DNA of 29,289 nt from a virus: positions 1 to 29,289 of the IMG/VR virus record IMGVR_UViG_3300009610_000759, one strand, 5' to 3'. The translations under genes and the position numbers were made by a program. The notes under the pieces were generated by a model that searched no databases, was not told the origin of the DNA, and worked only from the letters and a program-made list of their open reading frames with translations. Of this stretch, positions 355 to 26,376 are shown in pieces. Each line of letters opens with the position of its first letter. The stretch's first letter is position 1.

Positions 355-702
355 TCATACCAGCAAAGCGATAAACAAAGTTTCAGTGGCCTTAAGGTTG
401 GGTATGCGCTGGAAGGAGGCCACTTCAAAAGCATCTGACATCTGCATAGGGTCCTCTAAAACGTCGAAGACTAACTCCCCTAATCGTAATCTATCCCCAA
501 GACCAACCACACGGTCAACATAAACAGTCGACTTGGAAATAAGAGTCTCCCCTTTAGAGTCCCTGAATTCCTCATTGCTATCATCCCAGCGGCAGTCAAT
601 TTCGACCGGAGTAACGAAAGAGTAAGCGCCATATTGATCGGGCGTTGCGGACCGCGCCCACCAAACGGCCTTTTGTTTCCGCATCTTCTTAATGATGCTC
701 AT
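355..702 (-). CDS. Putative head-closure / neck protein
   Basis: A 115-residue protein. The ATG at 702 is chosen because it overlaps the stop of the preceding gene in ATGA and follows a GGAGG Shine-Dalgarno site seven bases upstream; a TTG at 708 is the alternative. The sequence has VEIDCRWDDSNEEFRDSKGE, then ISKSTVYVDR, then LGDRLRLGEL, ending near LKATETL. Phage proteins with the same order (Cys-Arg-Trp plus acidic stretch, SKGE, VYVDR, LPNLKATE) are encoded between the capsid and tail genes of many siphophages, and are usually taken to be head-closure or minor capsid proteins. No catalytic motif is visible. Position next to the gp6-like connector supports a neck role. Confidence 0.55.
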   Translation of the reverse strand: MSIIKKMRKQKAVWWARSATPDQYGAYSFVTPVEIDCRWDDSNEEFRDSKGETLISKSTVYVDRVVGLGDRLRLGELVFDVLEDPMQMSDAFEVASFQRIPNLKATETLFIALLV

Positions 703-1409
703 ACGCAAGCCTCCGAAAGTGAAGCCCTGTCTGGACCAAGAGTCTCGTTCGCAACTAAACGAGGGGAAGAACCAGACAGGGCTGGGGAGGGAAGAAGCTC
801 CGATAAAAAGTCAGCAAAGGTAATGCGGTCGAACACAGGCAATTTGCTGGAGCCGTCCGTCACGTTATACACCCGCACTTGCGGGAACCGGTGGAGACTG
901 GAGGCAATACTATAGAATCCCCGGGTGAAGCGGACGAAGGGCTCCGTGTTCAGCTTCTTCTTATTGTAGTCGTGCCAATGAAACTTCCCACCCTGCACGC
1001 TCAAGTCGTATCCCAGAAGGTAAATACGATGGGCACCTAGCAGCATGGCGAGATTCATCGCAGCGGCGCCAGTGGACTGGTTCCAACCCAGGGTGTCGCC
1101 ATCATGCAATCCGTCCTTAACCCGCTTCATCTGCCACAGCCAGTCCAACTTGAGCGTGAGGCACGTGGGAGCACAGGAGACGACACGTCCCTTAAAGCTC
1201 TTCAAGTCCTGCTTGTTCTTCTCCCACCAGCTCGTATCCCCGAACAGGCAGATGGAAACGATCTCCTCGCCCAAGTGCCAGGCGTCGTTGCACCCAATAA
1301 CGTTCCGCCCCTTTAACAGCGAGAAATCAAATCCTCGGAGGGAAGAACCGCCGCCTACTAGAAAGGCGTCCTGCCCGTCCCAGTCGCGAGAAGGAGCCCA
1401 GAGTGGCAT
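699..1409 (-). CDS. Sialyltransferase/DUF115-like glycosyltransferase
   Basis: A 236-residue protein with an N-terminal nucleotide-binding-type loop (LVGGGSSLRGFDFSLL, residues about 17-32) followed by NVIGCNDAW, and a central STGAAAMNLAMLLG stretch leading into IYLLGYDLS. This arrangement is typical of the DUF115 / GT42-like sialyltransferase fold, where the Gly-rich loop and the following N-D bind a nucleotide sugar and the later GYD helps form the active site. The donor and acceptor cannot be read from sequence. It is placed between two neck genes and shares a 4-base overlap with the downstream head-closure gene, so it is co-translated with virion proteins. The Ser-rich C-terminal 30 residues look disordered. 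Confidence 0.6.
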   Translation of the reverse strand: MPLWAPSRDWDGQDAFLVGGGSSLRGFDFSLLKGRNVIGCNDAWHLGEEIVSICLFGDTSWWEKNKQDLKSFKGRVVSCAPTCLTLKLDWLWQMKRVKDGLHDGDTLGWNQSTGAAAMNLAMLLGAHRIYLLGYDLSVQGGKFHWHDYNKKKLNTEPFVRFTRGFYSIASSLHRFPQVRVYNVTDGSSKLPVFDRITFADFLSELLPSPALSGSSPRLVANETLGPDRASLSEACV

Positions 1410-3709: not shown

Positions 3710-5359
3710 TTAGGACTTCGCGAAGTTCATCGCCGGAACTTCCATCGCTTCTTCCTGCTCCGAGGAGTTCTCGGACGGAACATTTGCCTGGCCCCCGTAG
3801 TGGGCCGGAGGACGCGAAACAACGCTCACTCCCGCGAGGCGGGCCAGACCGCGCAACTCGCCGAGCGGGCGGTTGGCCAAATCCTCTTTGGAGAAAGGAT
3901 TGTTTTTGTTCGCCACGATGGAGTCGATCAGCTTGGCCTTCTCCTCGTCATAGACCTGGATGCTGTTATTCAGCACCGCAGCCACTTCCGGCGGAGCCGC
4001 AGCAATGTATTCCTGGAGGTTGAGAGCGACCTTGGGCGCGGCGGGCTCCTGCTTGGGCTCCTCGTTCTTCGTCGCTGCCATCTTGTCGAACATGGCGTTG
4101 CACGTGGCCTTGTCGCTGACTCCCGCTGCCGTGCACCGCGCCATGAAGTCGGACTTCGCTTCACCCTGCTTGGGCATCATCAGCACGTTCTGCACTTGCG
4201 GCGCGGCCTGTTTCAGCAACAGATTGGCTTTCCCGTCCGTGCTCTTTTCCATGGTGAAGTTCACAGTGGGAAATTCCACGCGAAGCTTGACCATCGACTC
4301 CAACTGGTTTTCAGTGAGGTCCATCAGCGCCGTGCGGTCCTCTTCCTTATAGCCCGCATTGGCAGTGATGATGGAATCCACCAACTCTTTTTTATTCATA
4401 CGTTTATCTTTGTTTTTGGTTTCGGTTTGGTTGCCCACAAAGGCCCCCTCCACCGTTCGGTATTCAGTCACCCTAACAACAGGCGCTGGTGTCTCCTTAC
4501 TTAAGGTGACTCCCGTATCCGTTGCAGAATAGCCAAGGCGGAATAGTTTGCCACCTAATTCATAGATGACGAAATCTTCATATACATCATTCACCCACAG
4601 CGAAGGACCGGTCAGATCGTTCGTTGTGTTGAACTTCTTTCGCAGTGCTTCCCCAAGCGAGTCCCGGATATTGCCATGCGACATCTCATTATCCAAGAGT
4701 CCCAATTCCCGCATCATGCGTTCCATGACGTGCCGATACTTAGGATTGCATTCGGCAGCATTGCGGAGGAACCCAGCACCGTCCTTAATGGAGCAAGCGC
4801 CAATCTTGTCGGGCAGCAAAGCCAAGTGGTCAGGCCGATAGTTGCGGGCGATCCCCATGTAGGCTTCGCCCTTCCAGTCGCCCGGCTCCGCTTCCATATC
4901 CACAAAGACACCCGTGGAGAGTTCCATCATTTGGTTAGCTTCGATCGCTGCCATGATGCGCTCGTCCACAGCATTCGCGCGGTCGACTTCAATCCAAGCC
5001 TCCGACTTCAGCTTGCCCTTCTCGAACTTAGTGTTCATCATCACACCCACCTTACGGTTGGTAATGACGGACGGGTCGCAAGCGGAGATTCCCTGGCCGT
5101 TCATTTCCGGGTGATAAACGACTACGGGCTTGTGGTTCCAAACAACGGGCGTCTTGGATAACTCCTCCTTGGGGTAAAGCATAGGGCCGTCGGACCCGGC
5201 GTGGACGCCTTCCGTTAGGATGATCATGGGAACGACTAAGAAGTCGCGGTTCTCCATCTTGTCGTGGCGCACTAACTTGGGGAGCAAGTTGAGGACCAGG
5301 TTCTGTATGTTCCCCGGCTTGGGGTTTTCATTGAGAACTAATTGGCTCGGCTTGTTCAT
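3710..5359 (-). CDS. Prohead protease (DUF2213-like) with C-terminal scaffold
   Basis: A 549-residue protein. Residues about 35-200 carry the DUF2213 signature: an LTEGVHAGSDGP segment, TPVVWNHKPVVVYHP, VGVMMNT, ELSTGVFVDMEAEPG and RNYRPDHLALLPD followed by GACSIKDGAG. Proteins of this family are thought to be head maturation proteases encoded just before the capsid gene. Residues about 230-305 form a second small domain with WVNDVYEDFVIYELGGKLFR. The rest (about 320-549) is acidic, helical and Lys/Glu-rich, as in scaffolding segments. Methionine 321 (position 4399) starts a segment, MNKKELVDSIITANAG, that could be an internal scaffold start. The gene has an A/T-rich leader and lies after a strong hairpin. 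Confidence 0.7.
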   Translation of the reverse strand: MNKPSQLVLNENPKPGNIQNLVLNLLPKLVRHDKMENRDFLVVPMIILTEGVHAGSDGPMLYPKEELSKTPVVWNHKPVVVYHPEMNGQGISACDPSVITNRKVGVMMNTKFEKGKLKSEAWIEVDRANAVDERIMAAIEANQMMELSTGVFVDMEAEPGDWKGEAYMGIARNYRPDHLALLPDKIGACSIKDGAGFLRNAAECNPKYRHVMERMMRELGLLDNEMSHGNIRDSLGEALRKKFNTTNDLTGPSLWVNDVYEDFVIYELGGKLFRLGYSATDTGVTLSKETPAPVVRVTEYRTVEGAFVGNQTETKNKDKRMNKKELVDSIITANAGYKEEDRTALMDLTENQLESMVKLRVEFPTVNFTMEKSTDGKANLLLKQAAPQVQNVLMMPKQGEAKSDFMARCTAAGVSDKATCNAMFDKMAATKNEEPKQEPAAPKVALNLQEYIAAAPPEVAAVLNNSIQVYDEEKAKLIDSIVANKNNPFSKEDLANRPLGELRGLARLAGVSVVSRPPAHYGGQANVPSENSSEQEEAMEVPAMNFAKS

Positions 5360-7570: not shown

Positions 7571-8143
7571 TCACCTCTCCGTAGGCAAGGCGGGCGGGGC
7601 GGTAAGACGGAGGACTGCCGGCTCGCCCGGAATCGGCGGAGCGGCTGAAGCAATTTCACGAGTCACCCGCACGACACCGCGGAAGAAACCGGGCGCGGTC
7701 AAGTCAGTGCCCATCGTGGCATACTCCACCCAGGGCCCTGAAGGGTTATCGGACTTCTCCACATTGAACGCTAACTGGACGACGTTCGTTTTAAGATTGC
7801 CCGGAGGAAAGATGCCGCGCGGGGTGAAGTAGGATGCTTCATTGGAGAAATCGCTCTCTAGGCCAGCCGAGTTGTAGGCCGTCACAGCAAAGAAGAACTG
7901 TTGGTTGCGTGTGGGCAGCAAGCTGGTCACGTTAGTGATATTGCCCACGCTAGTTCGATTCGTGTATTGCCGGGAGCCTATCCCATAATAAAGGTTGTAA
8001 CCCGTGACGCTCGCATCCGGAGCCGGGTCCCATTGCAGCCGCACGGTCGGCGGAGCATTGCTAGGAAAGAGGAAGATGGCCGACTGGGCATAGGCCGCAG
8101 TGAATAGTAAGCTAAATGTTAGAATAGATAATATCTTTTTCAT
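7571..8143 (-). CDS. Secreted fibronectin type III protein
   Basis: A 190-residue protein with a clear Sec signal (KKILSILTFSLLFTAAYAQ, likely cut after AYA). The ATG at 8143 is preferred to the GTG at 8164 because it places the basic residues at the start of the signal. Residues about 30-110 form one fibronectin-III domain: PPTVRLQWDPAPD, VTGYNLYYG, YTNRTSVGN, FFFAVTAYNSAGLESDFSNE. The remainder has PSGPWVEYATM, resembling the second beta domain that often follows in Verrucomicrobiota proteins. Such domains mediate protein or carbohydrate binding. In a phage this could be a virion decoration or, given the signal peptide, a protein displayed by the infected cell. Confidence 0.75.
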   Translation of the reverse strand: MKKILSILTFSLLFTAAYAQSAIFLFPSNAPPTVRLQWDPAPDASVTGYNLYYGIGSRQYTNRTSVGNITNVTSLLPTRNQQFFFAVTAYNSAGLESDFSNEASYFTPRGIFPPGNLKTNVVQLAFNVEKSDNPSGPWVEYATMGTDLTAPGFFRGVVRVTREIASAAPPIPGEPAVLRLTAPPALPTER

Positions 8144-8169
8144 CCCCACAACTATAAGACCCACCTAAC

Positions 8170-8574
8170 TTAGTTGCCAGCCGTAACTTGTTTGAGCAGT
8201 TCCTCCGCCGAAATGGGAGTGTAACGACGCAGAATGATGCAATTCTTTTTTAGGCTATCCAACACAATCTTCCTATCTTCCTCAGCGGCCAGTGGGATCA
8301 AGGCCTCCAGTTCCTTGCTCGACATAACACTGCCGATCACACCCGCCATGATCTTAAGGGACCCGCCGAGCAGCTGATACTGGTTCGCCATGATGGTGAA
8401 CTGGTCACAAAGTGCATTGTATCCGTTCTCCTCCGACATTTTCAAATCCGCAAGTATGCGGGTCCAACGCCGCTCCATCTCCTCCACCGACACGCCCAGC
8501 TTCTTAGCAATCATCGCATCCGGCACGTTGCCCGCCTTGAGTTTGAATAAGTATCCGTCGTCAGTAACCTTCAT
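8170..8574 (-). CDS. Unknown protein with N-terminal HTH-like segment
   Basis: A 134-residue protein starting at ATG 8574 after GGAGAG nine bases upstream. The first 45 residues (GYLFKLKAGNVPDAMIAKKL followed by GVSVEEMERRWTRIL) have the look of a helix-turn-helix of the kind that tests whether to begin on a DNA site, with the spacing DAMIAKKLGVSVEEMERR. The remaining 85 residues are helical with an IMANQYQLLGGSLKIMAG stretch and an end reading SAEELLKQV. No other motif is seen. It follows the last glycosyltransferase by only four bases and could be a regulator of the cassette, which is inference from position alone. Confidence 0.5.
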   Translation of the reverse strand: MKVTDDGYLFKLKAGNVPDAMIAKKLGVSVEEMERRWTRILADLKMSEENGYNALCDQFTIMANQYQLLGGSLKIMAGVIGSVMSSKELEALIPLAAEEDRKIVLDSLKKNCIILRRYTPISAEELLKQVTAGN

Positions 8575-8578
8575 ATAG

Positions 8579-9118
8579 CTATACTCTCCGCAGCTTCCAG
8601 AACTGCAAAATGGACCGCTCCTTCTCCCGCGTGCTTAGGTGCCCGTGTTGGTGGGCAGCGTCGGCTTGGTGTCCCGTCCGCATGCCATCAAACCCGCTAA
8701 CGTCAAACTTGCACTGGTGCTCCTTGAGCCAAGCGAGCAGGCAGAACCCAGTTGTGGGAAACCGTTTTCCTATCTTCACCGCTAAGGGAAAACAAGTTTG
8801 GATATGGCGGTCACTTTCCGCATAGATCACCGGGCCCAAGCGGGCGTGGAAGTCATCCACAAACTTGTCCCGCTTCTTCGCCAGCGGCCACGTCCAGGGA
8901 ATAAAGATGGGATAGACGGGGCGGGGATCTATATCGCGGAAGCCGTTCGCCACCCAGTGCGTCACCTTGCTGCCGGAGAACCCGCCCAGCACATAGTTAT
9001 TGATACGGATGACTGTAGCGTAGTCCTGCTCCGGCACGGGCGAGCTTAAGACCCCGTTGCCAACAACGAGGATGGGACGAGTCAAGCTAGCGAGCCATGA
9101 AGTCAAGTGTTCGGACAT
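8579..9118 (-). CDS. Sialyltransferase-like glycosyltransferase (GT29-type)
   Basis: A 179-residue protein if ATG 9118 is the start. The longer frame to 9268 lies over the C-terminus of the upstream gene and has no similar composition, so it is rejected; a GGAG sits 10 bases before 9118. The N-terminal motif PILVVGNGVLSSPVPEQDYA followed by VIRINNY corresponds to the sialyl motif found in GT29-type enzymes (VVGNG, then V-I-R-x-N). A later TTGFCLLAWL and FDVSGFDGM match the second conserved region in which S-x-G or T-x-G precedes a helix. The terminal HQADAAHQHGHLSTREKERSIL could hold the catalytic His. The sugar used is unknown. It overlaps the upstream gene by 32 bases. Confidence 0.6.
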   Translation of the reverse strand: MSEHLTSWLASLTRPILVVGNGVLSSPVPEQDYATVIRINNYVLGGFSGSKVTHWVANGFRDIDPRPVYPIFIPWTWPLAKKRDKFVDDFHARLGPVIYAESDRHIQTCFPLAVKIGKRFPTTGFCLLAWLKEHQCKFDVSGFDGMRTGHQADAAHQHGHLSTREKERSILQFWKLRRV

Positions 9119-9920
9119 TTTCAATCCACTCCAAAAGTATCTTCCGGTTGCCATCCATTGTGGATTTGTAAACCGGATCGCTGGAGCCCGGGTGCCACTT
9201 GTGAATGAGGCAGAGTCGATTGTTCCACTCGTAGAGCTGCTTTGCTTTCGGCCGGCTGATTTCGTCACGGCATCTTCGCGTGACGTTCTCCAAGGTGATC
9301 ACGCCCGGCAGCGGGTCCTTGTCGAACTGGTATCGCTCCAGCATGTAGATTTGCTGATAGTCCTCCCAGCCGTAACCACGGAAACGCTCGTCACACCCGC
9401 CCAGCTTCAAGTAAGTTCCGCGGCGGCAGATGAAATTGGTTGCGGCCGGAAGCAAGTAGGAAGAGGAGGAGTAAGTCCGCGGACTCGCCATAACCGTATT
9501 GTAAGTCTTCACCGACAGCGGTTCCTTATCGGGAAGTATCATCAAAAACCGCTTGTTAAGATAGAACATTCCGCCGTTAAACCAGGCGCCCGGGCTGGCG
9601 TGGGAAAGCACGGGCAGCAACTCGCTGAAATATTCCGTATGCGGCAGACTGTCTATGTCTAACTTCATGATCCACTCCGTGCTGGCCTGCTCCGCTCCTA
9701 AGTTGTGGTAGTGACCGATGGACAAGCCCGGAGGTTCAAACTGGTGAAGGGCGTGGATGTTGGTCCCTTTAGTTTCCTCATCCCACCAGCTAGGGACCGG
9801 CTCGCCCACAAAGTAAATGAGATGCTGGACTGACGGCAGCGTGGCCGCCTTAATGCACCGCAGCCACGTCCGCAAGGCGTCGGGTCGGTTCCAATAAGCT
9901 GTGATCGTAGTGAGGATCAT
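9087..9920 (-). CDS. GT2 glycosyltransferase with GT7-like C-terminal motif
   Basis: A 277-residue GT-A fold enzyme. It starts with LTTITAYWNRPDALRTWL, and has the metal-binding D-x-D at residues 88-90 (MKLDIDSLPHT). The FRGYGWEDYQQ motif at residues about 180-190 is the galactosyltransferase/GalNAc-transferase C-terminal signature, in which W-E-D contributes the acceptor site and catalytic base; chondroitin-polymerase-type enzymes share it. TNFICRRGTYLKLGGCDE just before it is also typical. The gene starts in a 4-base ATGA overlap with the FkbM gene upstream, so the two are translationally coupled. Likely substrates are UDP-hexoses or UDP-HexNAc, by family only. Confidence 0.8.
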   Translation of the reverse strand: MILTTITAYWNRPDALRTWLRCIKAATLPSVQHLIYFVGEPVPSWWDEETKGTNIHALHQFEPPGLSIGHYHNLGAEQASTEWIMKLDIDSLPHTEYFSELLPVLSHASPGAWFNGGMFYLNKRFLMILPDKEPLSVKTYNTVMASPRTYSSSSYLLPAATNFICRRGTYLKLGGCDERFRGYGWEDYQQIYMLERYQFDKDPLPGVITLENVTRRCRDEISRPKAKQLYEWNNRLCLIHKWHPGSSDPVYKSTMDGNRKILLEWIENVRTLDFMAR

Positions 9921-10546
9921 ACCCGCTTGTAATAGCAGTCACCCCAACCTTGCTTCATCATTCTCGTCTCCCGCGCCTCAAACCCGTAGCCAGCTAAGTA
10001 GTCTGCAATCTCCGGCGCCAACGGGCAGCCTTTGTAAAGATGCCGCACGTTCACCTCAATGTAAGCATGGTCGAAGCTGAGCAGCAAGTTCTCCATACCT
10101 TTGAGCGCGAGCAGTTCCGCCCCTTGCAAGTCGATATTGAGAAACCAGCCGGGACCCACGCTCAGCCCGTGCGTAGCGAGCAGCGTATCTACCCGCGTCG
10201 TCTTCATCTTTAAGAAATTGACGAACTTGCAATCCGGATGCTCGACGGCATGCGTCCCAAATTCCAGGAAACTGGAACTTTGCCCACCGTTGTTAGCCAC
10301 GTTAAATGTAACGGTCTCGCCGTCCTTGTCGCTCACGCAAGCCAGCAAGGCAGTAGAACCCGGGTAGGACGCGATGTGCCGGACGAGAGCCGCGTGGACA
10401 ACGGGCAGGGCTTCCACCCAAATCACGTTCTTAATGCCTTGCGCAGCATATGCGGCAGCCTCCTGCCCCGTGTTAGCGCCGAGGTGGAGGACTCCCGGGG
10501 TTTTGATCTTGTGCCGGGCGAACAATTCATCGAATGGAATTAGCAT
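9917..10546 (-). CDS. FkbM-family methyltransferase
   Basis: A 209-residue class I SAM-dependent methyltransferase. Motif I is GVLHLGANTGQEAAAYAAQG (residues about 18-37), the acidic residue ending the second strand is in IWVEALP, and the FkbM region near the middle reads TTRVDTLL followed later by FLNIDLQGAELLALKGM. The end reads AGYGFEARETR. FkbM-like enzymes methylate hydroxyl groups of sugars in glycan and polyketide pathways, so it probably caps or decorates the glycan made by its neighbours. The start overlaps the upstream glycosyltransferase stop by seven bases. Confidence 0.8.
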   Translation of the reverse strand: MLIPFDELFARHKIKTPGVLHLGANTGQEAAAYAAQGIKNVIWVEALPVVHAALVRHIASYPGSTALLACVSDKDGETVTFNVANNGGQSSSFLEFGTHAVEHPDCKFVNFLKMKTTRVDTLLATHGLSVGPGWFLNIDLQGAELLALKGMENLLLSFDHAYIEVNVRHLYKGCPLAPEIADYLAGYGFEARETRMMKQGWGDCYYKRV

Positions 10547-11214
10547 GTGACAACTTTTTTAATATACTCAGCCGCGATTTCTTCCCGGCGGGCCCACGAG
10601 CAAGGTCCCGCTAAGTGGATGGTCGGCATGCCCAGTTCCCAGATCGTGCCGTCGCTCCAAATTTCCGGAGCGAAGCAGCCAATCTCTTTTCCCGTGCAAG
10701 CCCGGATGCCTTTATACTCCCACTTGCGAACGAGCTCATCCATATACCATTGCTCCCAGGGCTCGTGGAGCATCTTGGTAAGTTTGCCCGGGACAATGAG
10801 CGGGGAGCCGTGCTCGCAACGCTGGACCCACTCGTCTGTGAAGGCGCGGGCCGCTCCGCTATTGCGCCACACCGTCAGTCCAGCGCAGAGGTAGGGCCAC
10901 GCCGGCCAGTTAGTTTGGTGATACGCTGCCATGAACTCGTCCCGCACCAGCCTAATCAGCTTGGCTAAGTCCACCCGGTAGTCCATGAAAAGCACGTCCG
11001 CATCAGCCCACAGAACGTAATCGTATTGCTCCTTCAGAGCTTTGCTGATCTCGTGGACCTTAGAATAGCTAGGATGCAAGTCCGTCCAGTAGGGTTCACT
11101 CACCTCTTCATACTCGTAGCCTTGCGCCAGCGCATACTCTTTATGATTTTGAACGAGCCCGTTGCACCACTGCCGGATGTTGGGCGTGGCAATGGTAAGA
11201 AGTTTCTTTCTCAT
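10540..11214 (-). CDS. GT34-like (GMA12/MNN10) galactosyl-type transferase
   Basis: A 224-residue protein. The core motif YDYVLWADADVLFMDYRVDL (residues about 64-83) holds the D-x-D that binds the metal and sugar nucleotide, and resembles the W-x-D-x-D region of the GMA12/MNN10 family. It is preceded by YSKVHEISKAL, where family members carry W-x-K, and followed by AGLTVWRNSGAARAFTDEW, a second family-like block. Known members transfer galactose, mannose or xylose. The gene begins in an ATGA overlap with the methyltransferase upstream. The GT-A fold is convincing; the exact family number is less so. Confidence 0.7.
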   Translation of the reverse strand: MRKKLLTIATPNIRQWCNGLVQNHKEYALAQGYEYEEVSEPYWTDLHPSYSKVHEISKALKEQYDYVLWADADVLFMDYRVDLAKLIRLVRDEFMAAYHQTNWPAWPYLCAGLTVWRNSGAARAFTDEWVQRCEHGSPLIVPGKLTKMLHEPWEQWYMDELVRKWEYKGIRACTGKEIGCFAPEIWSDGTIWELGMPTIHLAGPCSWARREEIAAEYIKKVVTC

Positions 11215-11789
11215 GATTTTCTAACCCACCAAGAGGGATAGTCTTTTTCTCCCGTCACTGCGAGCACGGGCCCCAAGTTGTTCATCTGCACAAACTCGTT
11301 CACTGCGGTCTTCACTCCGTAGTCCCCTGACTGGATAACTCCATCAAGATAGTCATGCCCGGCAAAGATCCCGCCCACCTTCACCTTCGGCCACCAAAGC
11401 GCAATGTCCTTGCGGATGAACTCGAGCTTGTGGTTAGCGTCGATATAAACAAAGTCGAAGAAGTTGTCGGGAAACAGAACCGCCGCCGCGTCGGAGAACA
11501 TGCGCATTACCCGCGACCGCCCTTTGTAGAGAACAGACTTGTCCATTACCAGCTTGAAGCGGCGCTCCTGCTCGGTAGTATCTTGATTACAATAATCCCG
11601 ATAGATACCCTCCGTTAAGTGGAGCCAGGGATCTACCTGATAACAAGTGCCCGGCCACCTATCCAACAAGTAAAAGCTGAACCCTCCTTCCGCAACACCG
11701 ATTTCCACTGCGTTGCCCGTCAGCCCCAAGCTCACTAGATAAGGGGCGAAGTCATTCCGTTTTTGAGGTAGTTTCATTTTGATTACCAT
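11211..11789 (-). CDS. Class I SAM methyltransferase (Methyltransf_24-like)
   Basis: A 192-residue protein from ATG 11789, which overlaps the upstream stop by seven bases; ATG 11777 is also possible and neither has a Shine-Dalgarno site. Motif I is GNAVEIGVAEGGFSFYLLDR, the acidic strand end is YQVDPWLH, and motif II is FDFVYIDANHKLEFIRKDI followed by VKVGGIFAGHDYLDG. The YIDANH and GG-x-x-AGHDY pair is typical of small sugar or small-molecule methyltransferases of the Methyltransf_24 group, where the aspartate and histidine bind a metal. Context points to a glycan substrate. It is the second methyltransferase in the cassette. Confidence 0.75.
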   Translation of the reverse strand: MVIKMKLPQKRNDFAPYLVSLGLTGNAVEIGVAEGGFSFYLLDRWPGTCYQVDPWLHLTEGIYRDYCNQDTTEQERRFKLVMDKSVLYKGRSRVMRMFSDAAAVLFPDNFFDFVYIDANHKLEFIRKDIALWWPKVKVGGIFAGHDYLDGVIQSGDYGVKTAVNEFVQMNNLGPVLAVTGEKDYPSWWVRKS

Positions 11790-12508
11790 TGTCGTGCGAT
11801 GCGCTTTGCGGGTATGGGCCGCTCCCACACCCTTTCACCTTCCCACTTGGGAACCTTGCCAACGTAGGGAACCGCGTTGCCCGTGTCAATGTAAGCTTGC
11901 TGGGAGCCGCCGCGTTCGCTGATGCGTCCCGGCAACGGGCGGTTATACCAATAGAAAGGCTGATACTTCTTCTCATTAATCCCCACACTCAGGACGTTAA
12001 GGGCCCGGAGCCGGCGGTCTAGCTCCTGGTCGTCACCCGCATACTCCGCCCGATAGCCTCCTACCTTTGCAATGACGCTGCGGCGATATCCCCAACACCC
12101 GTGGTAGGCGCACCGGTTCCGCTTGGCATTGTGCGTCTCGCATTGCACCCACTCTTCGTTTACAAAGTCCATGGCGTGCTTGGGCTGGCAAACCTCCCCG
12201 GAATGCAGAGCCTCCGCCAGAGACTCCAGCCACCAGGGCATATAAATGTCGTCATCGTCCGCCTTGGCCAGCGCCTCGCTGTCAAAGGACGCAAGCGCGA
12301 TGGCCGCGTTGTTCTTTTCACCTAGGCTCCGGAACCGGCGCGGGACAGAGATCAAGTGCCAGCGGTCCCCGCTTTGGTTTTCATACTGCCCGCCGTCGTC
12401 CAGGATAATGAGTTCGCGGTTCTCGTAGGTTTGATTTTCGAAGCAAGCAATCATCCTGCCCAGCAACTCGGGACGATTAAGCGTCGGGCAAAAGGCAGTT
12501 ATCTTCAT
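11783..12508 (-). CDS. GT2-family glycosyltransferase
   Basis: A 241-residue GT-A enzyme; ATG 12508 is chosen because it forms an ATGA overlap with the upstream stop and directly precedes the fold's first strand. The N-terminus reads KITAFCPTLNRPELLGRMI, followed by ENQTYENRELIILDDGG. The metal-binding motif is a run of four aspartates at residues 84-87 (LAKADDDDIYMPWWLE). GCWGYRRSVIAKVGGY then AGDDQELDRRL correspond to the acceptor-side region with the catalytic E-D-type acid pair. It probably adds a hexose or HexNAc unit; the sugar cannot be told from sequence. Confidence 0.8.
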   Translation of the reverse strand: MKITAFCPTLNRPELLGRMIACFENQTYENRELIILDDGGQYENQSGDRWHLISVPRRFRSLGEKNNAAIALASFDSEALAKADDDDIYMPWWLESLAEALHSGEVCQPKHAMDFVNEEWVQCETHNAKRNRCAYHGCWGYRRSVIAKVGGYRAEYAGDDQELDRRLRALNVLSVGINEKKYQPFYWYNRPLPGRISERGGSQQAYIDTGNAVPYVGKVPKWEGERVWERPIPAKRIARQW

Positions 12509-12795
12509 ACAGATGTCAATCTTCCAGCTGTCAAATAACCATGCCACAAATCAGGCGCATGGATGCTAGGGACCAGCGTCGGCTTTTCCTCGTTGCCATC
12601 CCATCCCCATACCCTAGGTCCGCCGGGTGGGCCCTTCTGTATTCCCAACGCATCAGGCCCGCTAGTGCCTGGAATCCAAATGTAAATGTGGGTGAAGGTA
12701 TCATCGAAACAGAAGTCACCCACCTTCTCTATTCCTCCTTGTCCCTTCTCTTTCCCAAATCCTACTTTGTGGCAATCGATGCTTTCAGTGTTCAT
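12505..12795 (-). CDS. Small unknown protein with WGWDGN-x-PTL-x-PSI motif
   Basis: A 96-residue protein. ATG 12795 is chosen for its ATGA overlap with the fucosyltransferase stop and the GGAAGAG just upstream; a longer frame reads through the end of that gene. The C-terminal half has RVWGWDGNEEKPTLVPSIHA, then LWHGYLTAGRLTSV. Small phage proteins with WxWxG, P-T-x-x-PS and a final HGxxxxGR are common, often with a zinc-binding Cys pair near the start; here only scattered Cys are seen (Cys 8 and Cys 29 approximately). The function of that group is unknown to me. Being translationally coupled inside the cassette suggests a linked role. Confidence 0.5.
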   Translation of the reverse strand: MNTESIDCHKVGFGKEKGQGGIEKVGDFCFDDTFTHIYIWIPGTSGPDALGIQKGPPGGPRVWGWDGNEEKPTLVPSIHAPDLWHGYLTAGRLTSV

Positions 12796-13523
12796 AATCT
12801 CTTCCATTCCGGCGGAACAATATCCTTTGTTTCTAGCCCACCCCATCCCGGAACAAACCAAAGTTTTGGCATGACAACCTGCTTGTTGGAGTTTTGATTG
12901 AGCCACGCGCCCCACCAGCTAAAAGTAGAGGCAGAACAAATCTGGTGCTCGCATCCGCTCATTAAACAAAGGTCCTCGACCTCATTCCGACCTTCGGAAA
13001 AGGTGATCCAATCCTTTCCGCCAAATGTCTGTTTGCACCAGGCAATATCGTCGCTAAAGAACACGAACCGATAACCGGGGAACAACTTCATCGCTTGCTC
13101 TATCCATTCCTTGCCTATTTGCGGGTGCTTCTTATGCAGGCGCAGGAAGTCTCCGCGCCGGACGTGGACGGAGACATACCCCTTCCACTCCATCCAAGAA
13201 AAGTTCCACTGCTCCAACAACTGGTCGCGATAGTGCTTGAAGTATTTCTCGCTTTGCCAATAACCATCCAAAATGATGTTCTTGTCTCGCCAATCACTCT
13301 GGAAAGGAAGTTCCTGGCAGGCGAAACCCTTTTCCGTAATGAGAACCTCCGGCAGGTTAGGGTCCCACTTCGCATTCACCAAATGCTGGAGATAAACGGG
13401 CCCCTTCTTAGTAGGCGCATCGGGCAGGGTATAGTCCAGCCCGTGTTTCCAAGCGTAGGCCATCGCCGCCGCTGCTTGGAACAAGAAGTTACCCATCCTT
13501 CCGTAGGTTAAAGGTTTGACCAT
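12792..13523 (-). CDS. Alpha-1,2-fucosyltransferase-like enzyme (GT11)
   Basis: A 243-residue protein with the ordered GT11 motifs: GRMGNFLFQAAAAMAYA (residues 8-24), the GDP-fucose-binding VSVHVRRGDFLRLH (about 117-130, HVRRGD at 120-125), FVFFSDDIAW (about 153-162), and ICSASTFSWWGAWLN (about 195-209). The enzyme transfers fucose from GDP-fucose to a galactose-type acceptor, making H-antigen-like or O-antigen structures. Length is a little short of the usual 280-300 residues. No GDP-fucose synthesis genes are seen, so the donor must come from the host. Its start shares the base of TAATG with the upstream gene, and its end overlaps the next gene. Confidence 0.88.
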   Translation of the reverse strand: MVKPLTYGRMGNFLFQAAAAMAYAWKHGLDYTLPDAPTKKGPVYLQHLVNAKWDPNLPEVLITEKGFACQELPFQSDWRDKNIILDGYWQSEKYFKHYRDQLLEQWNFSWMEWKGYVSVHVRRGDFLRLHKKHPQIGKEWIEQAMKLFPGYRFVFFSDDIAWCKQTFGGKDWITFSEGRNEVEDLCLMSGCEHQICSASTFSWWGAWLNQNSNKQVVMPKLWFVPGWGGLETKDIVPPEWKRL

Positions 13524-13786
13524 TAGTCCTCTTGCCCTTTCACTTCTTGCGGAGGGACCGACTCGGTTTCCTTGATGATTTTAATTAAGTTGCCACCAAT
13601 CATTTTCCGCGCGGCGGCCAGTGCGTGGCCCTGGCAACCTCCTTCCAGAAAGGGAATATGGATTTCATTGATGTCTTGTGGGATAGTTGCATTGAGCAAG
13701 TTAGCGACATGCTTGTCGCGGCATTCCCACTTGTTCTCCTCGTCGTGCCACAGGGCCGTTTCTTCAAAGAGTTCAATCATTAACAT
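13523..13786 (-). CDS. Unknown 87-residue protein heading the glycan cassette
   Basis: An 87-residue acidic protein that I do not recognise. It reads WHDEENKWECRDKHVANLLN near the start, then NEIHIPFLEGGCQGHALAAARKMIGGNLIKIIKE, and ends in a charged tail (VPPQEVKGQED). There is one alanine-rich helix, two Cys and three His, but no obvious metal site. It lies two bases after the minor head gene upstream and shares the TAATG junction with the fucosyltransferase downstream, so it bridges the structural operon and the glycan cassette. Confidence 0.5.
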   Translation of the reverse strand: MLMIELFEETALWHDEENKWECRDKHVANLLNATIPQDINEIHIPFLEGGCQGHALAAARKMIGGNLIKIIKETESVPPQEVKGQED

Positions 13787-13787
13787 A

Positions 13788-16001
13788 TCACAAGCCCTTT
13801 ATCATTTTCACAATCGCGTCGAAGTATTCCGGGTCAGCATGGGCGAAGGCAGCGGCATCCTTCCACAGTAACTCAATGCCGACGGAAATGACTTCGCTGG
13901 CGTGCCCGTCCTCATACACCCGGCCGGCATAGACGCGGGTCTTATTGAACATATCCTTCTTGCCGCGGATTCCTTTGCTATGCCCGGGCAGCTGGACGAT
14001 CTTTTCGCCCACCGTCCGCTGCTCAAAGAAAGCGGTCTGCGCATTCATGATGGACTTAATCTTGTAGGAAAGGTGATGTCCGAACTCATGCGCCAATGTG
14101 GAGTGGTCGAGGGTCTTGTTTACCGGCATCGTGATTGTATCCTTCCACGAACTGTAGAGTCCGTTCGTGTTCCCCTTTAACGTCTTCAAATCCACCACAA
14201 GTTCATTGATAGCCCTTATCTCCGCTTGTGTGGCCCGTCCTTCCGGCATGAACTTTAAGACCTCGTTCATAGTTCCCGAATAGCGTTGCTCCACGCCCGG
14301 GAGATCGACCACGTTCGCCAAACTCTTCTCCTCAAAGAGTGCTTCCCGTGCGGCCTTCGCCACCGCTTCGTCCAGATCCCTCCGCGCAACATAGCCGGCA
14401 CTGGATGCTTTGTCGTAAGCGTCTTGTAAGCTCTGCAATCGCTCGTTAAAAATTAAGTCCTCCTGGGCGGTGAGCGTGCCTCGAATGGCCGTGTATTCCT
14501 GCCGGCCCTTTAGATAGGCAAGATAAGTATCGCTGGCCTTCTGCTCCAAAACTGCGGTCTCCGGATTTCCACGCGCGACCTTCGCCGCCTCAGTGAACAT
14601 ATTCTTTCGATACTCCTCCGCCGTAGCAAACCGGGTCGGAGCGGGAGCGGTTGGGACGCCCGGAGCGGGAGCAAGCGGCGCGGGTGGGATCGGTTCCGGC
14701 AGTGGCACAGGCGGAGGCGATACGGGCACCGGAGCTACGGGAGCGGGTGGCAATGGAGCGGGCTGGGGTATAGGCGGCGTCGGAACAGGTGTCGGCACTG
14801 GAACTGGCCCCGGCGGCGGCAAAGTGGGCGGAGGGATGGGCTGGACGCCCTGCTTAAACTTCCACAGTGCCCGGTTGGACCGCCACACTTCCCGTTCTAG
14901 GGTCTTGAGTTCTTCCCCGGTGATCCCCGCCTTCTTGGCTGTATTGAAAGCCGCACGGGCCGCTTTCAACGCCGCTTCCAGTTCCGGGCGGGACAGGGTC
15001 GCAGCCATGGCATCGGCCTCGCGGATAGCCTCAGCAGACAGGTCGCCCGCTGCCGCAATGCCGGCCTCCAGCGCCTCCTTCGCCGTATCGGACTCCGCCG
15101 GAATCCACGTGCATCGGCAATTAGGATGGAGGGGTATCAACCCGCGGGCTTCTTCCACAGAAAAGATTTGCCCTTCCATAGGCTCGCATTCCTCGCAGAC
15201 GCGATCGTCACCGGCCGTGCTCCACTCCGCCTTCACACCCAAGTCCTCCACTCCCAACTTAGTAAAAGCGTCCAGCTGCCCTTCGGCATGGGCGTTGATG
15301 ACTTCTGTCCGGGCGATTGTCATTGCTCGGCTATTGGAGAGGCTGTCAATCGCCTCGAACATATCCTTTGCGATCTCCTGGGCCCCGCTGCCGTCCGCCA
15401 TTCCTTGCGCGAGAATTAAATTCATGCGCGAGCCCATCGTGGCCGTAATGCCGTTCATGCCTTCCCAGGCGCGGGTCCCTAGCATCTGAATCTTCGACAT
15501 TACCTCCGGCGCACCGAAGGCGGAGCGGAGGAACTGTTCCTGGGTTTGCTCGCCCACACCCGCCGCCGCGAGCAGCTTTCCCTCCTTGCTGGACAAGTAA
15601 GCGTTCGTAAGCCCGCGCTTATAAGCTGACTCAACGAACTCAGTTGTCCACGGCTGCCCGTGCGGCGTCCCCGGGTCAGGTGAAAGAACGTTCGCTTCTA
15701 CTTGCTTGCGGAACCACTCATTAAAGATGGTAAGTTTCTGGGCGTCCGTGCGGAACTCGTATTCACGTGGGCTGATGTTGCCCACCAGTTTCTCAAAAGG
15801 AACGCGGTCGCGAGCGTCCAGCCCGAGTGCGTCTAGCGTCAGGAGGAACTTGCGCAGCTCTCGCTTGAGGTTGGCAAACGTCTTGCGTATCTCCAACATG
15901 AACTTCTTGCGGATCATGAGCGTGCGGGTAGGGTCCATCCGCAACGGGTTCTTGGCGTTGCGGATGAGTCGCTCAGGGGAATGAGCCGCGCAGCAAGGCA
16001 T
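13788..16001 (-). CDS. Minor head protein (Mu gpF/SPP1 gp7-like) fused to zincin-like domain
   Basis: A 737-residue protein; ATG 16001 is chosen because GGAGG lies eight bases upstream and the start is four bases past the portal stop. Residues about 20-150 are helical (PTRTLMIRKKFMLEIRK). Residues about 215-305 are the head morphogenesis domain, with RAMTIARTEVINAHAEGQ, then DDRVCEECEPMEGQIFS and PLHPNCRCTW, the last supplying likely zinc ligands. Residues about 388-455 are a Pro-rich linker with many PxP units. The C-terminal part has DHSTLAHEFGHHLSYKI (HEFGHH at 638-643), an HExxH zincin motif, followed about 60 residues later by DGHASEVISVGIELL, whose Glu may be the third ligand. It is expected inside or at the portal of the capsid. 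Confidence 0.75.
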   Translation of the reverse strand: MPCCAAHSPERLIRNAKNPLRMDPTRTLMIRKKFMLEIRKTFANLKRELRKFLLTLDALGLDARDRVPFEKLVGNISPREYEFRTDAQKLTIFNEWFRKQVEANVLSPDPGTPHGQPWTTEFVESAYKRGLTNAYLSSKEGKLLAAAGVGEQTQEQFLRSAFGAPEVMSKIQMLGTRAWEGMNGITATMGSRMNLILAQGMADGSGAQEIAKDMFEAIDSLSNSRAMTIARTEVINAHAEGQLDAFTKLGVEDLGVKAEWSTAGDDRVCEECEPMEGQIFSVEEARGLIPLHPNCRCTWIPAESDTAKEALEAGIAAAGDLSAEAIREADAMAATLSRPELEAALKAARAAFNTAKKAGITGEELKTLEREVWRSNRALWKFKQGVQPIPPPTLPPPGPVPVPTPVPTPPIPQPAPLPPAPVAPVPVSPPPVPLPEPIPPAPLAPAPGVPTAPAPTRFATAEEYRKNMFTEAAKVARGNPETAVLEQKASDTYLAYLKGRQEYTAIRGTLTAQEDLIFNERLQSLQDAYDKASSAGYVARRDLDEAVAKAAREALFEEKSLANVVDLPGVEQRYSGTMNEVLKFMPEGRATQAEIRAINELVVDLKTLKGNTNGLYSSWKDTITMPVNKTLDHSTLAHEFGHHLSYKIKSIMNAQTAFFEQRTVGEKIVQLPGHSKGIRGKKDMFNKTRVYAGRVYEDGHASEVISVGIELLWKDAAAFAHADPEYFDAIVKMIKGL

Positions 16002-16005
16002 TGGG

Positions 16006-17442
16006 CTAGCCTCCGAAGCGGTTCCCATTTCCACCCGCGGGCGCGGGCAGGGCGCCTCTAGCTCCCGGCGGAGCCACGATCGTAGGCGGAGGCGGCGGCT
16101 GTATGAGCTTGTCCTCCTCGTTCGCCAGCTGTTTCTCCGCTGCTTCGATCACAGAATCTGCCTCCTCGTCCGACAAACCCAGCACAAGCGTGAGGTAGTG
16201 GAAGGGTGGCATCAGCACATCACACCCGCCTTGCACATACTTCGCCAGTGAATTGGACTGCTTCTCCGCCACGCTGGCTTTATCCAAGTCTGTTGGGCTA
16301 TTCAAATCCGGCCAGTCCACTTCGTATCCCTCCGCCGGCATAGGCAACACACCCGCTGCAATCAGCCGCTCGCAAAACGGGCGGAGGATAAAAGGATTTA
16401 CATACTCATTACGACGCTTAGTGATGCGGGCGTTCCAGGCGCGGGTGTCTTGCTCGGACGCCAGCTGGGCCGCTTCCGACCCGACTAGGACCCGCCAAGG
16501 GACGCCCATCGCCACAGCAATAAGCTTGAGCTGGAGGTCAGCATGGGGACCGGGGTCAGCCACCTGCACGCTCAGCGACTTGGCCGTCATGCCAATCGTA
16601 GCGATGTAGCGTTGGAGGCCGTTCATGTAGCCCTCAATCTGCTCCTTAGTTGCCTCCTTATCAAACTCCACATCATCCTCCATGTTTTGACTCTCGAGAG
16701 ATATGCCAGGGAATCCACCCTTCCAAAACATCTCGCCGGACCCGCCGGATATCTTACGTAAATCAAGCAACCGGTCGAAAACCTTTTCCATGCGCGGGCA
16801 GCCATAAATTTCAGAGTTGGTGCGGTTGTCAGCAAGATGAATCATACGAGTCCAGTGGACTTCTTGAATCTGCTTCACCCCAGAAAACATATCCTCAAAC
16901 GTGACGCGGTAGGTAACCGGCTGGCCATAACGCGGGGAAGAAACGTCTGTCTCCAACGTAGGAACCTCCAACAACGTCTCATCAAAGGGGCGGAGGTAGA
17001 GCAGCTGGGTAGGTTCGCCCGTGCCCGGATTATCGAGCGTGGCAGTGAGGACCCGCTGCATCGGCAGGTTCAAGGGAAGTCCGTCATCGAACCCAAGCAG
17101 CAAGGCACCATAACGCCCAATGCCACTCAGGATATCGGCCCGCTGGAGATAAGTGAAGATGGGTATCTTCTCCACTAGCTCCTGCCAAGCTAGCTCGAAT
17201 TCGGTTTCCGCCTCGTCCTCCGTTTCGTAAACGTCCGGCGCCTCTTTCCAAGTCTCCTCCGGCATCAAGGACACCACTCGAGAGGCGACATCACCCCGGG
17301 TGAACATGCGCTTGTAATCAGATGTAATGATGGTTTCTGGGTGACCGCATTCCGCATCGATATCCCGCCGCGGGTCCATGAGCTTGGAAATCCACGCCTT
17401 GCGGGTGAGCAAAACATTTCGAACTAGGTTGGCCAGTTTCAT
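16006..17442 (-). CDS. Portal protein (DUF1073-like)
   Basis: A 478-residue protein from ATG 17442; the longer frame to 17565 overlaps the upstream exported protein and adds an unlikely hydrophobic leader. Family-like features are the opening with KLMDPRRDIDAECG, the clip and stem region with LQRADILSGIGRYGALLLGFDDG (about 105-127), DNPGTG-x-x-x-LLYLRPFDE, then SLSVQVADPGPHADLQLKLIAVAMGVPWRVLVGSE and RAWNARITKRRNEYVNPFILRPFCERLI. The last two blocks match the DUF1073 portal type, where the protein forms a dodecameric ring at the capsid vertex for DNA passage. The end is Pro/Gly-rich. The minor head gene follows four bases downstream, as is standard. Confidence 0.78.
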   Translation of the reverse strand: MKLANLVRNVLLTRKAWISKLMDPRRDIDAECGHPETIITSDYKRMFTRGDVASRVVSLMPEETWKEAPDVYETEDEAETEFELAWQELVEKIPIFTYLQRADILSGIGRYGALLLGFDDGLPLNLPMQRVLTATLDNPGTGEPTQLLYLRPFDETLLEVPTLETDVSSPRYGQPVTYRVTFEDMFSGVKQIQEVHWTRMIHLADNRTNSEIYGCPRMEKVFDRLLDLRKISGGSGEMFWKGGFPGISLESQNMEDDVEFDKEATKEQIEGYMNGLQRYIATIGMTAKSLSVQVADPGPHADLQLKLIAVAMGVPWRVLVGSEAAQLASEQDTRAWNARITKRRNEYVNPFILRPFCERLIAAGVLPMPAEGYEVDWPDLNSPTDLDKASVAEKQSNSLAKYVQGGCDVLMPPFHYLTLVLGLSDEEADSVIEAAEKQLANEEDKLIQPPPPPTIVAPPGARGALPAPAGGNGNRFGG

Positions 17443-17486
17443 AATTGCTAAGATAACACGGAGCCCGGAGGAGACTAGCAGAAAAA

Positions 17487-17774
17487 TCAGGGCGAAGTTC
17501 TCAGCCCGCCAGGCGGTGGAAAGGTATTCGTCCACGTGTAGAATAAAATGCCATCCCGATACCACTCCACCCGAACGATGGGCGCAACCATACTAGCGAA
17601 AGAGGCGCTGAGCGTAATCGTATTTGAAACCACGGCTCCGTTGGTGGGATAATTCCATTGGCTCCACATGGGCCCTTGCTCCTGTCCGCCCATAGGCATC
17701 ACGAGGATCGTAATTGCGATAGAGCCAGTGACTGCAATAAGCAGCATCAAGAAAAGGCTTTTAAGTTTCTTCAC
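17487..17774 (-). CDS. Small exported Ig-like protein
   Basis: A 95-residue protein starting at a GTG (17774). The N-terminus (KKLKSLFLMLLIAVTGSIAITILVM) is a signal peptide or membrane anchor. The rest reads YPTNGAVVSNTITLSASFAS, then IVRVEWYRDGILFYTWTNTFPP, which resembles one Ig-like (Big_9-type) unit of the kind P-x-x-G-x-x-V-S-x-T-x-x-I-S-A followed by V-E-F-Y-x-D-G. The unit is probably incomplete because the frame stops soon after the second strand pair. It sits just before the portal gene and after a terminator-like hairpin. Whether it is exported by the cell or placed on the virion cannot be told. Confidence 0.55.
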   Translation of the reverse strand: MKKLKSLFLMLLIAVTGSIAITILVMPMGGQEQGPMWSQWNYPTNGAVVSNTITLSASFASMVAPIVRVEWYRDGILFYTWTNTFPPPGGLRTSP

Positions 17775-18154: not shown

Positions 18155-18367
18155 TTAATCCTCGTCGCGGGCCTTGCGGTCCCGGACAATAGCTTCATCG
18201 ATTGCCTTGTCCGACAACTTCTGCTCAAGCAGCCGCAGCTGGATCTCACGGGCGTCTATCTCTTTGATCGCCTCGTCCACCCGCTCCATCCAACCGCGCG
18301 TGACGCCATACTCACCACAGTTGGGCGTGGTGCGATAGTCCAATAAAAGTTGCTTAGCCTTGCTCAT
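18155..18367 (-). CDS. Small coiled-coil protein coupled to ThyX (70 aa)
   Basis: A 70-residue protein from ATG 18367, which overlaps the ThyX stop in ATGA and has GGAGGAG six bases upstream, one of the clearest ribosome-binding sites here. The longer frame reaching 18550 reads the ThyX gene out of frame and is rejected. The sequence opens with SKAKQLLLDYRTTPNCGEYG and then is one long charged helix (VDEAIKEIDAREIQLRLLEQ) ending in KARDED, so it is probably a coiled coil. No function is recognised. Confidence 0.6.
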   Translation of the reverse strand: MSKAKQLLLDYRTTPNCGEYGVTRGWMERVDEAIKEIDAREIQLRLLEQKLSDKAIDEAIVRDRKARDED

Positions 18368-19071
18368 CGAAACTCCTCCGCCGTGTCTACAGTCTTGAAC
18401 TTGACACTGTCGTAGATATCCATCGTCCAAGGAAACAACCCGCGCACAATCTCCTTCATCGCCTTCGCGTAGTCTTGATGTTCTCCCTGAGCGTGCGGGT
18501 CGTCCCGCAGCATGAAATACTTGAGCAGGTTGTTCAGGTCCCAGCAGCAATAGAACTCGGTGTAGATACCCACCGGCAGCACAATTCGCGCTTGCTCCCG
18601 CGCGACACCGAGCGCGAGGAGCCGCTGATATTGCTGATAGGCCTTCTCGTAGAATCCCTTCACCTCTAAATTAGCGCACCAAGCATCATCCTCGTCTAAA
18701 ACACCGTCGCTACTCTGCTTGTTCTTCGTGTCTTGCAAGCGCCACACGGCCGGCATAAAGAACTCTTCTGGCAGCATGCTATAACGGGCGGACACCTCGT
18801 TCACGTTCTGCATGCGGTGGCGGATATACTGCCGCATCACAAAGATGGGCATCTTGATATTGAACTTCACCTTCACCATCTCGAAGGGGCTGGTGTGACG
18901 GTTTTTAAACAGGTAGCGGAGAAGCTTGCGGTCCGCCTCCTCGCCTTTGCTGGCGCTGTGGTAAGACACGCGGGCCGCCTCCACAATATCGAGGTCGGTC
19001 CCCAAGTGGTCAATATAACGAACGAACCCGTGATCATGCACGGGGATGGTGTGGCCTTTAAGCAATGTCAT
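18364..19071 (-). CDS. thyX: Flavin-dependent thymidylate synthase
   Basis: A 235-residue protein of the usual ThyX length. The diagnostic RHR-x7-S motif is present at residues 84-94 (RHRMQNVNEVS, followed by ARYSM). The FAD and dUMP-binding segments are RHTSPFEMVKVKF (about 58-70), and ARIVLPVGIYTEFYCCWDLNNLLKYFMLR (about 155-185), where LP and the Asn-rich helix are conserved. The enzyme methylates dUMP to dTMP with methylene-tetrahydrofolate and FAD, so the phage can support its own dTMP pool. It is preceded by AGGAGA and an ATAATAA spacer. The downstream small gene is translationally coupled. Confidence 0.93.
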   Translation of the reverse strand: MTLLKGHTIPVHDHGFVRYIDHLGTDLDIVEAARVSYHSASKGEEADRKLLRYLFKNRHTSPFEMVKVKFNIKMPIFVMRQYIRHRMQNVNEVSARYSMLPEEFFMPAVWRLQDTKNKQSSDGVLDEDDAWCANLEVKGFYEKAYQQYQRLLALGVAREQARIVLPVGIYTEFYCCWDLNNLLKYFMLRDDPHAQGEHQDYAKAMKEIVRGLFPWTMDIYDSVKFKTVDTAEEFR

Positions 19072-25671: not shown

Positions 25672-26376
25672 CTAGAACCGCCAGTTCTGCCGAACCAGCG
25701 TTTCCGTGGCGGGCGCCTCCGGAGCATAAGTGGTCGGGTCCTTTACTCCCGCCAGCCAGAACGCTTCGCGGCGTTCGATGCACGTCCCGCAGGCTCCGCA
25801 ATGCACGACGGCTCCGACATAGCAGGACCAAGTCATCTGGAAGTTGACGCCCAGCTCGAATCCCCGCGACACAATTTCCGCCTTCGTCTTGTGGATGAAG
25901 GGACGTTCCAGCGCAATCTGTTTCCAGTCGCATAGGTTGGCCACAGCCTGCATAGCGTCCGCAAACTCCGGCCGGCAGTCCGGGTAGATAGCGTGGTCGC
26001 CCGAGTGCGCAGCATAAGCCACGGAGTCGCACCCGTGGGCGATGGCATGCCCGATAGCAACGGCGAGGAGGATCATATTCCGGTTAGGGACCACCGTCGC
26101 CTTCATGTTCGCCTGAGTGTAATGGCCCGTAGGCACGGGTATGGTGAGGTCCGTCTGTGAGCTGCCCGGCAGGATGCCGGCGAGCTGGAATAAATCCGCG
26201 TTGCGGTAAGGGACGTGCAACGCAGCGGCCTGCACGAGTGCACACTCTAACTCCCGCATGTGGCGCTGGCCGTAGTTGAAGGACAAAGCGCGAAGTTCCA
26301 CGCCTTCCTTTTTGAGGTGGTGGGCGAGAACGGTGGAATCCATTCCGCCTGACAGTAGCACGACAGTTTTGCTCAT
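25672..26376 (-). CDS. queC: 7-cyano-7-deazaguanine synthase
   Basis: A 234-residue protein. The ATP-pyrophosphatase loop [13 protein letters not shown] (residues 9-21) opens the protein, [12 protein letters not shown] and [16 protein letters not shown] follow, then [31 protein letters not shown], and the zinc site TWSCY plus [15 protein letters not shown] with Cys 185, 193, 196 and 199. These are the signature elements of QueC, which converts 7-carboxy-7-deazaguanine to preQ0 with ATP and ammonia. In phages this usually feeds deazaguanine modification of DNA; FolE, QueD, QueE and the transglycosylase DpdA are not in this window. It starts four bases past the upstream small terminase-like gene. 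Confidence 0.93.

Follow-up and report, generated by a model that had tools for sequence, protein, structure and literature searches.

The GtrABC serotype-conversion cassettes of temperate phages are phage-borne glycosyltransferase operons. Glycosylation of the virion itself has so far been demonstrated, among tailed phages, for mycobacteriophages: Che8 (gp110), Corndog (gp38) and Myrna are reported to glycosylate their capsid and tail tube with transferases of their own (Freeman et al. 2023, according to PMC12363180 and PMC12619734). In the chlorovirus PBCV-1, the glycan of the capsid receives its cap from virus-coded transferases and methyltransferases (A064R, A061L) (PMC9614988). Phage glycan clusters and the glycosylation of virions are each known separately; what appears to be new in the case described here is a locus within the head module whose interior can be swapped, on which a literature search that covered few subscription journals found no paper. 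We describe this locus in a 29,289-nucleotide stretch of viral DNA, the IMG/VR record IMGVR_UViG_3300009610_000759 (hereafter the window, meaning the whole stretch), in which seven enzyme-sized genes and one small gene occupy positions 8579-13523 of the minus strand with overlaps of 4-32 bases, a layout given in an earlier note on this DNA and with which the coordinates agree.

Relatives of the window, which are IMG/VR contigs found with portal, GT11, GT2b (the second GT2-type transferase of the cassette) and FkbM searches, keep the gene order portal, MuF, a variable interval, protease, decoration protein and major capsid protein (MCP). A complete interval is either occupied by a cassette region, at 6.0-8.4 kb, or measures 0.3-3.6 kb and holds different genes or no genes, and the MuF-protease junction is an insertion locus in these related viral contigs. 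About 20 relatives are without the cassette at the locus. On a portal tree built from 73 loci, the 19 loci with a cassette belong to a single group with good support, as do L108 and nine loci left unscored for the cassette, and the cassette label changes twice on this tree against a mean of 13.6 changes in shuffles. The comparison of gene order proposed in the earlier note therefore places the cassette at the same head-module junction across one clade. The note had also named disrupted reading frames in close relatives as a possible objection; instead, all of the enzyme genes are under purifying selection in comparison with the near relative L005 (dN/dS, the ratio of nonsynonymous to synonymous divergence, 0.04-0.17), and for this reason they are not chance reading frames.

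At this fixed position the content of the cassette varies. The core common to complete cassettes consists of GT11, a Methyltransf_24-type gene, FkbM and GT2b, and two types of interior are found: GT2a-MT24-GT34, which is that of the window, and another with GT2c, MTx, GT25 and either FkbM2 or g314. Some cassettes add a 220-aa protein resembling, by eye, a 2-oxoglutarate oxygenase (no Pfam match), and some a GDP-mannose 3,5-epimerase (phmmer 5.8e-95 in L088). L169 retains only a methyltransferase-like gene, GT2b and the last gene, the insert of L108 consists of a gene without assigned family and a Methyltransf_23 gene, and the small DUF6527 gene of the window is missing from L005. Exchange is visible also between near relatives: against L005, the divergence at synonymous sites (pS) is 0.80 in GT11, where these sites are saturated (nonsynonymous pN 0.095), 0.28 in the adjacent GT2a and 0.20-0.43 in the flanking structural genes. 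The window GT11 is roughly equidistant from L005 and L002 at synonymous sites, and the window and L005 also differ in the MuF C-terminus and in the small gene adjoining GT11. We infer that the block of GT11, this small gene and the MuF C-terminus was probably replaced by recombination.

The glycan character of the cassette claimed in the earlier note is upheld by Pfam profile searches judged against curated cut-offs, which GT11, GT2, Methyltransf_24, GT34, FkbM and the second GT2 all exceed; PHROGs concur on GT11, GT2a and both methyltransferases. GT11 matches the Pfam profile of its family and carries the HxRRxD-type motif, which in the form HVRRGD is kept in 18 relatives. The FkbM match spans the full domain (positions 2-172 of 173; 48.4 bits against a cut-off of 22.7), whereas that of GT34 is weak and partial (25-99 of 238; 25.0 bits against 23). 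As for the GT7-like motif reported earlier in the second GT2, GT2b does contain a conserved GxGWEDY, but the GT7 profile PF02709 stays under its cut-off (E 0.1). The AlphaFold model of GT2b is good (pLDDT 87.6). The solved folds closest to it are K4 chondroitin polymerase and LARGE1, followed further down by GalNAc-transferases (TM about 0.5), which speaks for a GT-A transferase that may act with N-acetylhexosamine (HexNAc) and leaves its acceptor unfixed. No hydrophobic stretch suggesting a membrane helix is present in any cassette protein, and promoter and terminator scans gave nothing beyond chance.

The last cassette gene is real, as shown by its low dN/dS (0.165 against L005) and its homologues, one of which, 48% identical, adjoins GT2b in L169; in the phage collection no homologue was found, and tblastn matched neither this gene nor GT2b there. 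Its frame opens with GTG at 9268, and the ATG at 9118, which gives the 32-base overlap, agrees with the relatives. The name "sialyltransferase-like" given to its product earlier is unproven: the protein matches nothing significantly in Pfam, PHROG or the PDB sequences, a search with the Pfam Glyco_transf_29 profile (GT29) was empty, and the label rests on the resemblance, by eye only, of its VGNG...RxNNY and FPxxGF...GFDG segments to sialylmotifs L and S. The HxxxxE of this protein has no counterpart in L169. AlphaFold, run on three near-identical sequences, reached a pLDDT of 36.7, and the model was therefore not used in the fold search.

The sugar donors were taken in the earlier note to be derived from the host. 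This fits the window, in which no nucleotide-sugar gene was seen (the epimerase family was searched), but not the relatives, some of which carry a GDP-mannose 3,5-epimerase or the GDP-L-fucose pathway. The epimerase of the cassette relatives L088 and L092 is of the GDP-L-galactose type, and the cassette-less L135 and L149 have two epimerase-family genes each at the MuF-protease locus, in L135 a GDP-mannose 4,6-dehydratase (1.5e-123) and a GDP-fucose synthase (6.3e-64). Such genes would fit a GDP-sugar donor for GT11. In L135 (3533-5406) and L149 (10462-12332) the GDP-L-fucose pathway, with genes identified in L135, stands alone at the junction.

Searches with GT11 and FkbM also brought up similar GT11/GT2/FkbM cassettes in three or more other lineages, whose head genes are unrelated to those of the window. 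In L194 the cassette lies between terminase (phrog_6681) and portal (phrog_6547), a layout shared by L192; in L193 it lies between the head maturation protease (phrog_94) and the portal (phrog_11226), in L190 after the terminase (phrog_2) and in L020, less closely, near a structural protein. That such cassettes repeatedly adjoin packaging or head genes is the chief new argument for a virion role.

We consider it probable that the operon is a cassette that glycosylates virion proteins, its predicted acceptors, in the cytoplasm. Three things favour virion proteins: several lineages have such a cassette in the head module, the enzymes are soluble, and neither a flippase nor GtrA nor a tyrosine integrase was found. 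The cassette also possesses one of the things that a virion-glycosylation system calls for, namely phage-coded glycosyltransferases that are intact and under selection. The cassette would be expressed late, alongside the head genes, and its soluble enzymes would act in the cytoplasm, where a GT-A transferase may start or extend a glycan on a virion protein; GT2b is the candidate for this step, being a core gene whose fold neighbours are HexNAc-transferase-like. GT2a and GT34 could then lengthen the glycan, and GT11, drawing on a GDP-sugar, would attach a fucose-type sugar; O-methylation of the glycan would fall to the FkbM and Methyltransf_24 enzymes, and the last gene may add a cap. With interior genes swapped between phages, the sugar coat of the particle would change while the locus stays fixed. 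Several points weigh against glycosylation of virion proteins. The acceptor protein and the initiating protein glycosyltransferase are both putative; no Ser/Thr-rich extension specific to cassette phages was found in the MCP, decoration, connector and GT42-like proteins; the absences just cited are weak, since the records are possibly incomplete; and similar enzyme sets of cyanophages stand outside head modules.

This last point leads to the usual reading of such genes, according to which the cassette would remodel host surface glycans (lipopolysaccharide, capsule or cell-wall polysaccharide), with superinfection exclusion or an easier release of progeny as the benefit. The GT25 and FkbM families are also found in bacterial surface-polysaccharide pathways. 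The cyanophages S-SRM01 and P-SSM2 cluster GT11, FkbM, GT2, GT25 and GDP-fucose genes away from their head genes, and these sets have been interpreted as cell-surface, that is, surface-polysaccharide genes (PMC9602691). However, neither a Polysacc_synt flippase nor GtrA (PF04138) nor a tyrosine integrase (PF00589) was found in 15 records, which may be incomplete, with positive controls; the cassette has no membrane-bound enzyme; in this clade it keeps a fixed place in the head module, and elsewhere its counterparts adjoin packaging or head genes. Remodelling of the host surface is accordingly unlikely, though not negligible, and temperate serotype conversion of the GtrABC kind was set aside on the same three absences. 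The choice between virion and host surface, which the earlier note had left open, is tilted by the comparative evidence towards virion proteins, without proof. Since other cargo occurs in relatives (GDP-mannose dehydratase and GDP-fucose synthase in L135 and L149, an unassigned protein and a methyltransferase in L108, small unassigned genes in others), the MuF-protease junction might also be a neutral insertion hotspot in which glycan genes with some other cytoplasmic use were placed by chance. Much of the identifiable cargo is sugar- or methyl-related, contrary to what a neutral hotspot would lead one to expect, and unrelated phages repeatedly have similar cassettes next to head or packaging genes, so that we regard chance placement as improbable.

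Least probable is that the enzymes glycosylate modified bases of the phage DNA and so confer resistance to host nucleases. Phage-coded transferases that hypermodify DNA do exist (Pyle et al. 2024, as cited in PMC12619734), and Thy1 and QueC of the window touch nucleotide metabolism. On the other hand, the thymidylate-synthase/hydroxymethylase family (PF00303) was found in just 1 of 11 records, a Tet/JBP search gave none, as did its control set, GT11, FkbM and GT34 are families of glycan chemistry rather than base chemistry, and the gene set seems longer than base modification needs. The QueC (queuosine/7-deazaguanine) and Thy1 genes lie at 25672-26376 and 18364-19071 (minus strand), and L102 has a PF00303 thymidylate synthase near the spot where other relatives have Thy1.

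Returning to glycosylation of the virion, its extension beyond this clade is more tentative, and we hold it at somewhat less than even: several unrelated tailed-phage lineages may have in common a modular glycan locus that is exchanged horizontally and situated next to packaging and head genes. Such a locus would build a methylated fucose-type oligosaccharide in the cytoplasm, straight onto virion proteins and with no lipid carrier, and its swapping would diversify the particle surface. The features of the locus in the window are collected in Table 1.

Table 1. Genes of the cassette and of its surroundings in the window, in the direction of the minus strand.
Feature	Position	Strand	Evidence
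MuF-type minor head / head morphogenesis protein, left border	13788-16034	-	Phage_Mu_F 5.4e-18; phrog_758 1.7e-36
Small 87-aa gene coupling MuF to the cassette	13523-13786	-	No family; homologues in L002, L007, L011, L012, L091
GT11 fucosyltransferase-like glycosyltransferase, core gene	12792-13523	-	PF01531 2.5e-25; HVRRGD conserved
Small DUF6527 gene, not conserved in cassette	12505-12795	-	PF20137 4.2e-6
GT2 glycosyltransferase (GT2a)	11783-12508	-	PF00535 Glycos_transf_2 6.1e-11
Methyltransf_24 methyltransferase, start 11789 or 11777	11211-11789	-	PF13578 6e-14
GT34-like glycosyltransferase	10540-11214	-	PF05637 1.9e-5, barely above cut-off
FkbM-family methyltransferase, core gene	9917-10546	-	PF05050 Methyltransf_21 1.5e-12; alignment
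GT2b, second GT2-type transferase with GT7-like GxGWEDY, core gene	9087-9920	-	PF10111 Glyco_tranf_2_2 1e-10
Last cassette gene, sialyltransferase-resembling motifs by eye	8579-9118	-	Without family match
Small conserved gene	8170-8574	-	No family (Pfam, PHROG); synteny
DUF2213 head maturation protease-like protein, right border	3710-5359	-	PF09979 2.4e-7; phrog_2229 8.9e-7
GT42-like (sialyltransferase/MptE-like) protein, head module	699-1409	-	phrog_4603 3.8e-29 ("alpha-2,3-sialyltransferase")

Upstream of the cassette lie the portal gene (16006-17565) and MuF. The link between MuF and the cassette is the 87-aa gene, which only some relatives have and which overlaps, at its stop, the start of GT11. 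Downstream, the order is the small conserved gene, which comes after GT2b in most relatives and is also found in some without the cassette, an fn3 gene, three unassigned genes, the DUF2213 protease, the decoration protein and the MCP. The cassette was said to stand between the minor head protein and the protease; this order is right and is kept in relatives, but five genes (8574 down to 5705, about 3.2 kb) come before the protease. Among them, the gene at 7571-8164 (minus strand) encodes a protein that begins much like a signal peptide and has a weak fn3 domain, and a 136-aa protein with a similar leader is found inside the L011/L012 cassette. MuF contains (13788-14900, minus strand) a long proline-rich linker and a C-terminal HEFGH motif (HExxH, metallopeptidase-like); its C-terminal region, variable and missing in L005, can be likened to MuF proteins with exchangeable C-terminal domains.

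One further glycosyltransferase-like gene of the window had been omitted from the cassette list, namely the GT42-like gene, which sits between capsid and connector genes. A 13-sequence profile gives its product a putative link to a solved GT42 enzyme (Cst-II, E 5e-4, profile 14-145), and it is also MptE-like in 11 of 13 relatives. This gene was rejected as a cassette member and is probably not part of it, since it is kept in relatives with and without the cassette. Its relatives in Caulobacter phages come after tail genes. As to the host, the best isolate matches of the portal include haloarchaeal viruses, and an MCP scan of bacterial and archaeal genomes gave one match, L082 (QMSR01000059.1; 65% identical MCP), a 5.7 kb contig binned in a metagenome-assembled genome of a Thermoplasmata archaeon; this contig is probably viral and is too little for naming a host.

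The presence in uncultured phages of a conserved locus in the head module, fixed in its core and swappable inside, suggests that phage particles with a sugar coat are more widespread. The idea can be tested, now that its genes, its locus and the cassette-less relatives that serve as natural controls are named. The GtrABC cassettes share with this locus the phage-borne glycosyltransferase operon, but no GtrA-type flippase or tyrosine integrase was found in the window or its relatives, and the enzymes are soluble here. The cyanophages S-SRM01, P-SSM2 and S-SCSM1 likewise run GT11, FkbM, GT2, GT25 and GDP-fucose or GDP-mannose epimerase genes together, at identities of 28-32% for FkbM and about 34-35% for GT11; unlike the cassette, their clusters are larger, lie beside photosynthesis and metabolic genes outside the head module and are interpreted as host-surface genes. 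With PBCV-1 the likeness, by description, is in virus-coded GT-A transferases followed by O-methyltransferases, whereas PBCV-1 is an algal virus with N-glycans on its major capsid protein and a fused multidomain enzyme. Mycobacteriophages too are tailed phages encoding their own glycosyltransferases, with glycans that are proven there and predicted here; set apart by description, the present cassette is longer, includes two methyltransferases, GT11 and GT34, and stands inside the head module.

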